Below, in pieces: positions 11,045-13,248 of a stretch of 64,000 bases of DNA. The notes beneath the pieces are model-generated. The model ran no database searches, was not told the origin of the DNA, and saw only the letters and a program-made list of their open reading frames with translations. The stretch covers positions 1-64,000 of the forward strand of contig JACRMR010000008.1 of assembly GCA_016214895.1 (NCBI GenBank). The letters run 5' to 3'. A program made the position numbers and the translations under genes. The stretch comes from a candidate division KSB1 bacterium. GTDB lineage: Bacteria; Electryoneota; RPQS01. Position 1 is the first letter of the stretch, and each line of letters begins with the position of its first letter.

Positions 11045-11611
11045 CTGGGCGCTAAGAATTCGAAGGTATTGGCAGACTTCATCGCCGCCGCCGCTCTGGA
11101 GAAGAAGGCGATCGATGTTGCGATTCTGGATTTGCGGAAGCTGGATGCGCTGACGGATTTCTTCGTGATCTGCACGGGCGAAGTCGATCAGCACGTGCGG
11201 GCGATAGCGGATCACATTCAGGACGAAGTCAAGCAGCGGACGGGGGACAAGTTGTTGCACCGCGAGGGTCGGCAGTCCCTGAATTGGGTGCTGCTGGATT
11301 ACGTGGATGTGGTCGTGCATGTGTTCAGGCCGGCCTTTCGGGAGTACTACCGGCTGGAAGACTTGTGGAGCGACGCCGACCTGCGCGTGGTGAAGGACAA
11401 GGATGGCAAGGCGCCACCAAAGGCAAAGCCGCGGGCGAAAGCGGCTCCGGCCAAATCGGGGAGCACGACTAAACGGGCGGCGAGCGCGACCAAACGGGCG
11501 GCGAAGCCTGCCGTGAAGAACGCACCGAAGCCGAAGCCAAAGTCGAAGTCCGCGCCCGTGCGCAAGCCGGCGGCGAAGTCCACGAAGCCCGCGAAGAAGA
11601 AGTCTTCGTGA
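11045..11611 (+). CDS. rsfS: Ribosomal silencing factor RsfS with a Lys/Ala/Pro-rich tail
   Basis: RsfS binds ribosomal protein L14 and blocks subunit joining when nutrients are scarce. The conserved core is ALEKKAIDVAILDLRKL-DALTDFFVICTGEVDQHVRAIADHI, then EGRQSLNWVLLDYVDVVVHVFRPAFREYYRLEDLWSDA. The typical family member ends there. Here about 70 more residues follow, almost only Lys, Ala, Pro, Ser and Arg, like a histone-H1 or AlgP tail. A TTG at 11069 begins within the first helix; CTG 11045 sits 7 nt behind GGAGGG (11032-11037) and gives a normal N-terminus. The frame has no ATG or GTG upstream. The stop overlaps argS by 4 nt. Confidence 0.88.
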   Translation: MGAKNSKVLADFIAAAALEKKAIDVAILDLRKLDALTDFFVICTGEVDQHVRAIADHIQDEVKQRTGDKLLHREGRQSLNWVLLDYVDVVVHVFRPAFREYYRLEDLWSDADLRVVKDKDGKAPPKAKPRAKAAPAKSGSTTKRAASATKRAAKPAVKNAPKPKPKSKSAPVRKPAAKSTKPAKKKSS

Positions 11612-13248
11612 AACGTCCCGAGCAGCATCTTGAGGCGGCTTTGCAGGCCGCGCTGATTGAACTCGGGGTGGCGGATCCGCAGGTAGTCCTGGAGAAACCG
11701 CGCGACGCGGCTCACGGCGATCTCGCGACCAGCGCGGCGCTGGTGAGCGCGAAAGTGTTGGGGAAAGCGCCACGGGTGATCGCGGAAGCCCTGACCGCGA
11801 AACTTGACGTTGACGCCGCACTCATCTCGCGTGTGGAAATTGCCGGGCCGGGATTTATCAATTTCACACTGGCGCCGGAGTATCTGCACACGATCGCGCG
11901 TGACGCGCTGTCGAATCCGGAGCAGTTCGGCGTTACGGACGACCTGGCGGGGCAGCGCGTCCTGATCGAATTCGTGAGCGCGAATCCATCGGGGCCCTTG
12001 AATGTGGTGAGCGCGCGCGCGGCGGCAGTCGGGGACACGCTGTGCCGGATGTTTCGTGCGCGGCAGGCCGGCTGCGATGCCGAGTTCTACGTGAACGACG
12101 GGGGGAATCAAGTCAGGCTGCTGGGCGAGTCGGTTCGCGCGCGCTACGAATCGAAGTTCGGCAATCCGCTGGAGATTCCTGAAGGCGGCTATCACGGGGA
12201 GTATGTGACCGAGTTGGCGGAGGAGATTGCGGCGACTCAGGGCGAGCAGTTTCGCGCGCTCCCGGCCGAGGAAGCGTCGCTACAACTGGGCCGGCGGGCG
12301 GTCGAGCATTTCGTCGAGTCGCATCAGGCAACCATGGCGAAGTTCCGCGTCCGCTTTGATCGCTGGTTTCATGAGAACGCCCTGCGCGAAGCGCGGCTGG
12401 AATGGGCGGCGCTTGGGCAATTAAAGACGCGCGGAGCGGTTTTCGAGCGGGACGGTGCGACGTATGTGCGCACCTCGGAGTACGGCGACGGCCAGGACTG
12501 GGTGGTCGTGACGTCGGATGGCCGGCCGACGTATTTCCTGCCGGACCTCGCCTATCATCTGGACAAGTATGACCGCGGCTACGACGTTATCATTGATATT
12601 CTCGGACCGGATCATCACTCCTACCTGACAAAAATGAAGGCGGGAATGGCGGCGCTGGGCCGGGACCCGCGGCGGCTGGAAGTGCACTTGCTGCAATACG
12701 TGACGTTGCTGCGGGACGGCGAGCCGGTCAAGATGTCCAAGCGCGCGGGCCGGCTGATTGAGATGTCGGAGCTGCTGGATGAAGTGGGCGTGGACTCCGC
12801 GCGCTATTTCTTCTTATTGCGCCGGACCACGACGCCGCTGGATTTTGATATTGAACTGGCCAAGAAACAATCGGATGAGAATCCGGTCTATTACGTTCAA
12901 TATGCGCATGCGCGGATCGAGTCGATCTTTCGGAAGGGGAATGTTGACGCGCCGGGCGCGGACGTCGAACTCTCGATCTTGACGTTGCCGGAGGAGCTGG
13001 ATCTGCTGCGCCGGCTGCGCGAGCTGCCGCAGGCGGTCCGGGATTGCACGAACGCGCGTGATCCGCATGCCATGACCGTTTGGCTGCGGGAGGTGGCGAC
13101 GCAGTTTCACAAGTTTTACCACAATTGCCGCGTGCTGACGACGCCCGCGGAACTTCAAACCGCGCGACTCGCTCTCTGTCGCGCGACGCAAATCGCGCTG
13201 GCCCGCGGTCTGTCGCTGTGCGGAGTGAGCGCCCCGAAGGAAATGTAG
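11608..13248 (+). CDS. argS: Arginyl-tRNA synthetase lacking the HIGH signature
   Basis: The 546-aa protein has the ArgRS domain order. An N-terminal Add-1-like domain (residues 1-115; EKPRDAAHGDLATSAAL) is followed by the Rossmann catalytic core, by GPDHHSYL, by a KMSKR loop at residues 375-379 (GEPVKMSKRAG), by DFDIELAKKQSDENPVYYVQYAHARI and by the DALR anticodon domain. The class I HIGH site normally reads PLHVGHxR after SANP. Here it reads PLNVVSAR: Asn132-Val-Val-Ser135 replace His-Val-Gly-His, so both catalytic histidines are absent. The bases are unambiguous and the frame is intact. GTG 11608 overlaps the rsfS stop. It is either a divergent but active ArgRS or a paralogue. Confidence 0.9.
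   Translation: MKRPEQHLEAALQAALIELGVADPQVVLEKPRDAAHGDLATSAALVSAKVLGKAPRVIAEALTAKLDVDAALISRVEIAGPGFINFTLAPEYLHTIARDALSNPEQFGVTDDLAGQRVLIEFVSANPSGPLNVVSARAAAVGDTLCRMFRARQAGCDAEFYVNDGGNQVRLLGESVRARYESKFGNPLEIPEGGYHGEYVTELAEEIAATQGEQFRALPAEEASLQLGRRAVEHFVESHQATMAKFRVRFDRWFHENALREARLEWAALGQLKTRGAVFERDGATYVRTSEYGDGQDWVVVTSDGRPTYFLPDLAYHLDKYDRGYDVIIDILGPDHHSYLTKMKAGMAALGRDPRRLEVHLLQYVTLLRDGEPVKMSKRAGRLIEMSELLDEVGVDSARYFFLLRRTTTPLDFDIELAKKQSDENPVYYVQYAHARIESIFRKGNVDAPGADVELSILTLPEELDLLRRLRELPQAVRDCTNARDPHAMTVWLREVATQFHKFYHNCRVLTTPAELQTARLALCRATQIALARGLSLCGVSAPKEM

Follow-up and report, generated by a model that had tools for sequence, protein, structure and literature searches.

The stretch of DNA analysed here (the window, 64,000 nucleotides from a candidate division KSB1 bacterium) carries argS, the gene for arginyl-tRNA synthetase (ArgRS), whose GTG start overlaps by four bases (GTGA) the stop of the upstream gene for RsfS (Table 1). 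The neighbourhood is of the housekeeping type, comprising genes for an NTP transferase, a LytR_C protein, RsfS, ArgRS, PfkB, IF-2B, and TPR proteins. The RsfS homologue displays a C-terminal tail of about 70 residues, rich in Lys, Ala, and Pro.

The argS product passes, over its whole length, the curated equivalog cut-off of TIGR00456 (398.4 vs 261.65 bits) and comprises three domains scoring above their respective cut-offs, including (i) the N-terminal tRNA-binding domain (PF03485), (ii) the class I core (PF00750), and (iii) the DALR anticodon domain (PF05746). The same protein misses the cut-off for NrtL, the ArgS-related anticodon-binding protein (NF045898; 124.7 vs 340 bits). An AlphaFold2 model (50 sequences) reaches a mean pLDDT of 94.8 and a pTM of 0.92, and its closest solved structure is that of ArgRS from Campylobacter jejuni (PDB code, 3FNR; Z 42.5, rmsd 1.9 over 447 residues, 36% identity). 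The window enzyme shares with this canonical NPTGPL-type ArgRS the domain order, the fold, the SANP(T/S)GPL strand, the DHH element, and KMSKR; nevertheless, 3FNR displays PLHIGHAR and a basic residue at position 302, whereas the window enzyme displays N-V-V-S and Thr302.

The HIGH motif and its replacement

Class I synthetases are defined by the HIGH motif as their catalytic signature, and the structural alignment places both of its histidines in the ArgRS structures from C. jejuni, P. horikoshii, yeast, and E. coli. At the site aligned to PLHIGHAR of 3FNR, the window enzyme comprises N132-V133-V134-S135, within VSANPSGPLNVVSARAAAVGD, located where the predicted helix 133-151 of the AlphaFold2 model begins; the HxGH motif is not matched, with no His in any of the four positions. 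A preliminary description of this DNA had read the site as Asn132-Val-Val-Ser135 and had considered the KMSKR loop, together with all other ArgRS regions, to be intact. Direct reading and the alignment to 3FNR confirm the motif, and the KMSKR loop and the domains are indeed preserved; on the other hand, changes are seen at residue 302, at the third position of HIGH, and at the residue flanking the strand inferred to bind adenine.

Table 1. Location of argS, its upstream neighbour, and the residues discussed in the text
Feature	Position	Strand	Remarks
RsfS (ribosome silencing factor)	11069..11611	+	upstream neighbour of argS
argS, arginyl-tRNA synthetase (ArgRS)	11608..13248	+	546 aa, GTG start
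HIGH-equivalent N132-V133-V134-S135	12001..12012	+	codons AAT GTG GTG AGC; N-terminus of helix 133-151
A136 R137 A138	12013..12021	+	A136 in 89/89, A138 in 88/89 distinct clade sequences
T302	12511..12513	+	K/R in 252/253 other ArgRS; aligns with yeast Lys and C. jejuni Arg
P334 of GPDHH	12607..12609	+	GADH/GSDH in most others; P also in 32/253 others
H337	12616..12618	+	His in 89/89 clade sequences; H/Q/N/I/S elsewhere
Y364	12697..12699	+	Tyr in the window; other 64 clade members Q (55) or H (9)
KMSKR loop, intact	12730..12744	+	KMSKS-type; M376, S377, K378, R379 invariant in 65/65 clade members

The core of the PROSITE pattern PS00178, which we take to be [HT]-[LIVMYAC]-G-[HNTG], permits Thr at position 1 and Asn, Thr, or Gly at position 4, so that losses of a single histidine are not new. 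This core matches 71 of the 79 HxGH sequences in the sample described below and 120 of the 154 that lack the first His only, but none of the 65 members of the clade to which the window enzyme belongs. The full N-x-V-S replacement falls outside this pattern; natural alteration of HIGH is already known in IleRS2.

Copy number and distribution

The source genome (3.2 Mb, 97.9% complete) contains one match to the ArgRS core (PF00750), in a search that was positive in 14 of 14 control genomes. An ArgRS match is present in 37 of the 39 genomes searched from the window's phylum, the two match-less genomes being 56% and 80% complete, and all 37 display N-x-V-[S/N], the first residue being Asn and the third Val. 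Such uniformity is more than chance would give, and a sequencing or assembly error behind N-V-V-S is rejected because the motif is common to all 37. No second ArgRS match appears in the remaining 36 of these genomes, except that in two (G004 and G008) the one gene is matched in pieces. A second, canonical argS is thus rejected for the source genome and across the matching genomes of the phylum; the preliminary description had raised the option that a canonical argS elsewhere accompanies an inactive copy, which the single match of the ArgRS-core search contradicts.

A second phylum, labelled KSB1, has no genome in common with the window's phylum, and the window's own family includes a KSB1-titled member (L110). 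Its 78 genomes with an ArgRS match, out of 82, comprise (i) 55 with N-[VI]-V-[SN], (ii) 15 with PL[TS]IGHGR, (iii) five with an archaeal/eukaryal-like ArgRS carrying KMKSR, in three of which HLGH is read, and (iv) three in which the motif is unreadable. The five archaeal/eukaryal-like enzymes (L183, L184, L185, L191, and L408, in G074, G076, G107, G075, and G108, respectively) occur without an N-x-V-S match, a pattern that would fit displacement of the gene. In addition, one genome of this phylum (G125) contains, besides an N-x-V-N ArgRS, a fragment of an HVGH/SMSTR ArgRS on a short contig (L394, L410), which may be contamination or a second copy. The argS at L405 (G095:C1:322167-323793) is split by one in-frame TGA, reflecting a frameshift, a sequencing error, or decay.

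The other class I synthetases of the lineage were compared at the same motif. IleRS of the window's phylum preserves HxGH in all 30 sequences read, from 39 matching genomes, and LeuRS of the source genome displays a canonical HIGH. A general loss of HIGH across the phylum is accordingly rejected; of the synthetases checked, only ArgRS has lost the motif in full. In the source genome (G000 C2 and C13; L232 and L236), ValRS reads LTIGH, having lost the first His, and MetRS reads PHIGT, having lost the second.

Phylogeny of the variant and associated substitutions

The comparison comprises 345 distinct aligned ArgRS sequences from the window's phylum, the KSB1-labelled phylum, Chloroflexota, Gemmatimonadota, Bacteroidota, UBP2, Omnitrophota, and Calditrichota, together with the hits of one search; the sample was picked by closeness to the query and is non-random, and phylum names are those in the record title of the locus at the centre of each search. 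Duplicates and four broken or truncated frames (L055, L211, L337, and L367) were left out before the counts of 318 and 345 sequences given here, and a further set of 371 sequences, including 89 distinct members of the clade, is restricted to loci covering residues 121-345 in one piece. Within this query-centred sample of 345, the motif classes comprise (i) 79 sequences with HxGH, (ii) 154 without the first His only, (iii) 24 without the second His only, and (iv) 88 that have lost both, of which 65 read N-x-V-[S/N] and 23 otherwise; HIGH is therefore non-canonical in 266 of 345.

Trees were built without the HIGH and KMSK columns, from 121 representatives and, earlier, from 114; they are quick trees, with SH-aLRT as the sole support and no bootstrap. 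The N-x-V-[S/N] enzymes form one clade in both (SH-aLRT 99 with 121 tips, 98 with 114), and on the tree of 121 representatives the state requires one change, with no reversal seen. The loss of HIGH in the clade is best read as a single ancient event. The suggestion in the preliminary description that the protein represents a variant ArgRS subfamily is supported by this deep clade, which spans two phyla, and by the single ArgRS of the genome. Its other two options, an altered mechanism and compensation, may also apply, since substitutions specific to the clade in other parts of the protein hint at them.

The remaining losses of both histidines are spread over several branches, the both-lost state needing at least 11 changes in all. 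HIGH is widely labile in ArgRS, with further losses of both histidines in Chloroflexota and some Bacteroidota. The enzymes with Thr at position 1 and KMSTR, found in Bacteroidota, Calditrichota, and Omnitrophota, resemble the window enzyme in lacking the first His; nevertheless, they preserve K/R302 and, except in Bacteroidota PLT[IV]GRGR, the fourth-position His, and they lack the second Lys of KMSK. Likewise, Chloroflexota enzymes with PLPVASGR, PLTAASGR, PLTVGNAR, or similar motifs have lost both histidines and include the sole ArgRS match of two genomes (G044 and G045), but they lie on separate branches, nearly always retain K/R at position 302, and, with one exception, carry Gly or Ala as the third residue of the motif.

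Individual lineages add detail to this picture. Four Bacteroidota sequences (L301, L302, L303, and L305) combine PLT[IV]GRGR with KMSTR, an independent case, from a well-studied phylum, in which both histidines are lost and the second is replaced by Arg. The Chloroflexota enzymes (L080, L093, L142-L171, and L192-L230) display a radiation of HIGH motifs, several without any His, including PLPVASGR, PLTAASGR, YLTAVAGR, PLTAGAGR, PLTVGNAR, PLHVGAAR, and others. One of nine UBP2 sequences reads PLNVGHGR with KMSTR, with Asn at position 1 and GH retained, and is possibly a picture of an intermediate step. Among 318 ArgRS, His at HIGH position 1 occurs with the second KMSK lysine in 89 and Thr or Ser with Thr in 126; this association did not reach significance once phylogeny was taken into account (8 starred pairs in the pair test, median p 0.375), and no claim of coupling is made.

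Within the clade, Asn132 is encoded by AAT in 32 members and AAC in 33, and Ser135 (n = 62) by AGY in 56 and TCN in 6, a switch that requires two base changes while retaining Ser. N132 and S135 are under strong purifying selection. N132, V134, A136, P334, and H337 are invariant in all 89 distinct clade sequences. Outside the clade, position 136 is mostly Gly, position 138 mostly Gly, Asn, or Gln, and position 364 Phe, Leu, or Met in most ArgRS. Residue 302 is Thr in 80 of the 89 clade sequences and Lys in the other nine, so that loss of Lys302 is not required for the motif. The pairs at positions 135 and 302 comprise S-T (79), S-K (4), N-K (5), and N-T (1); in a phylogeny-aware test, two of two independent pairs agree with coupling, whereas the N-T sequence (L386) contradicts it. 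On the other hand, N126, Y309, and D313, aligned to yeast Asn153, Tyr347, and Asp351, presumably the arginine-recognition residues, are invariant across all 318 ArgRS and, together with E121, in the 65 clade members.

From the alignment, we infer that residues 302, 334, 337, and 364 lie near ATP and that residue 364 adjoins a backbone residue bracketing the adenylate, by the yeast numbering given in passages of PMC5919687. The altered positions appear to be grouped around the nucleotide, since residue 364 would occupy that site and, as stated in passages of PMC10485003, the third position of HIGH is conserved as Gly to seat adenine. The Gly-to-Val replacement at this position, together with the frequent loss of the basic residue 302, suggests a rebuilt ATP site.

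Activity, alternatives, and proposed mechanism

The reading that we consider likely is that the window protein is the sole, functional ArgRS of the cell and that its clade lost HxGH once, replacing it with N-[VI]-V-[SN], and has kept that loss, with catalysis predicted from the conserved remainder of the enzyme and its copy number. That the protein is a working housekeeping variant and the only ArgRS appears very probable, whereas the detailed division of catalytic labour among the replacement residues is decidedly tentative.

The converse, a pseudo-enzyme or paralogue that no longer charges tRNA-Arg and leaves this task to another enzyme, would fit the disappearance of both catalytic histidines, the HIGH Gly, and the conserved basic residue. 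Nonetheless, it appears extremely improbable given the single core match in an almost complete genome, the lack of a second ArgRS in the other matching genomes of the phylum beyond pieces of the same gene, and the strong conservation of the rest of the protein, which scores as ArgS and far below the NrtL cut-off. Selection by an inhibitor, whereby the HIGH site was rebuilt to block a natural ArgRS inhibitor that mimics the adenylate, is also most unlikely. We know of no ArgRS inhibitor that binds at the HIGH site, and the tree indicates a single early change, fixed in two phyla and never seen to revert, whereas the altered motif of IleRS2 is patchy. Even so, the adenine-facing position 3 is altered here as in IleRS2, which, according to passages of PMC10485003, illustrates how resistance can drive a HIGH change that blocks mupirocin.

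A relocated histidine could replace those of HIGH, with H337 of GPDHH or another His entering the ATP site; the third-position His of the G/AXHH motif in IleRS2 provides a precedent (passages of PMC10485003), and H337 is invariant in the clade while variable elsewhere. However, His also occupies position 337 in 112 of 253 other ArgRS and, in an earlier set, in 14 of 31 with canonical HIGH; being common outside the clade, it is no clear replacement for the HIGH histidines, and this explanation is unlikely. Neutral drift, in which HIGH is inessential in NPTGPL-type ArgRS and has drifted in many lineages, the clade among them, draws on the lability of the motif described above, with its 266 non-canonical sequences, 88 sequences lacking both histidines, and 11 or more transitions to or from the both-lost state, including Bacteroidota PLT[IV]GRGR and Chloroflexota PLPVASGR, PLTAASGR, and PLTVGNAR. 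The phyla sampled are those nearest to the query and non-random, and the invariance of N132, V134, A136, and P334 within the clade is not what drift would give; we hold drift to be improbable, with perhaps one chance in several of being correct.

Two known systems bear on the preferred reading of a functional, sole ArgRS. IleRS2, as described in passages of PMC10485003, is a working synthetase in which HIGH is naturally altered to G/AXHH, including the adenine-facing third position, and HIGH swaps are tolerated. IleRS2 displays His at positions 3 and 4, a patchy distribution, and mupirocin hyper-resistance, whereas the clade ArgRS contains no His in the motif (Val at position 3, Ser or Asn at position 4) and is fixed in the window's phylum as sampled. 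In addition, LeuRS and the LeuRS urzyme with AVGA in place of HVGH lack the HIGH histidines and keep measurable activity (passages of PMC10450160), so that catalysis without them is chemically possible; those enzymes are laboratory mutants with measured catalysis, whereas the clade ArgRS are natural and their activity is predicted.

In the proposed mechanism, arginine would be activated via the ordinary class I route, in which the two HIGH imidazoles would contact the phosphates of ATP at the transition state. The Asn132 amide and the Ser135 hydroxyl may take over part of this work as hydrogen-bond donors near the phosphates, while the remaining share would fall to KMSKR, which is intact, and to the N-terminal end of the helix. 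Val134, in place of Gly, would be accommodated by a reshaped adenine/ribose pocket comprising residues 136, 138, 334, and 364. The tRNA end and domain closure may also shape the ArgRS transition state, lowering its dependence on HIGH. The activation step of ArgRS requires tRNA (passages of PMC7373986), and for this reason ArgRS may tolerate the loss of HIGH better than most class I enzymes. In solved complexes, the HIGH side chains engage in few contacts unless ATP is bound (passages of PMC5919687); on the other hand, replacing the first His reduces activation by a factor of about 1000 in several class I enzymes (passages of PMC10485003), so that full activity of the clade enzyme is not assured.

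The preliminary description had asked whether this could be a widespread, already described ArgRS variant. Widespread it is, across two phyla; full-text searches of an open-access library, which covers few subscription papers, yielded no published description of a HIGH variant of ArgRS, a result that does not prove absence. The nearest described case is the G/AXHH swap of IleRS2. The G/AXHH motif of IleRS2 had gone unrecognised before 2023, according to the authors of that study (passages of PMC10485003).

It is conceivable, though somewhat short of an even chance, that two phyla have dispensed with catalysis by the HIGH side chains in a class I synthetase that is essential, with KMSKR, backbone dipoles, and bound tRNA sufficing, and that both histidines and the adenine-facing Gly were exchanged jointly, in most cases along with a basic residue that is otherwise near-universal. 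Whether the HIGH histidines are needed is central to models of early protein catalysis, and natural essential enzymes without them would allow the share of these side chains in catalysis to be tested directly, going further than laboratory mutants. If the reading is true, calling a protein inactive or a pseudo-synthetase automatically from a broken HIGH motif would be unsafe for ArgRS, the HIGH signature would be dispensable in nature where activation depends on tRNA, and the ArgRS family, with loss of both histidines in at least three further branches, would constitute a natural laboratory.
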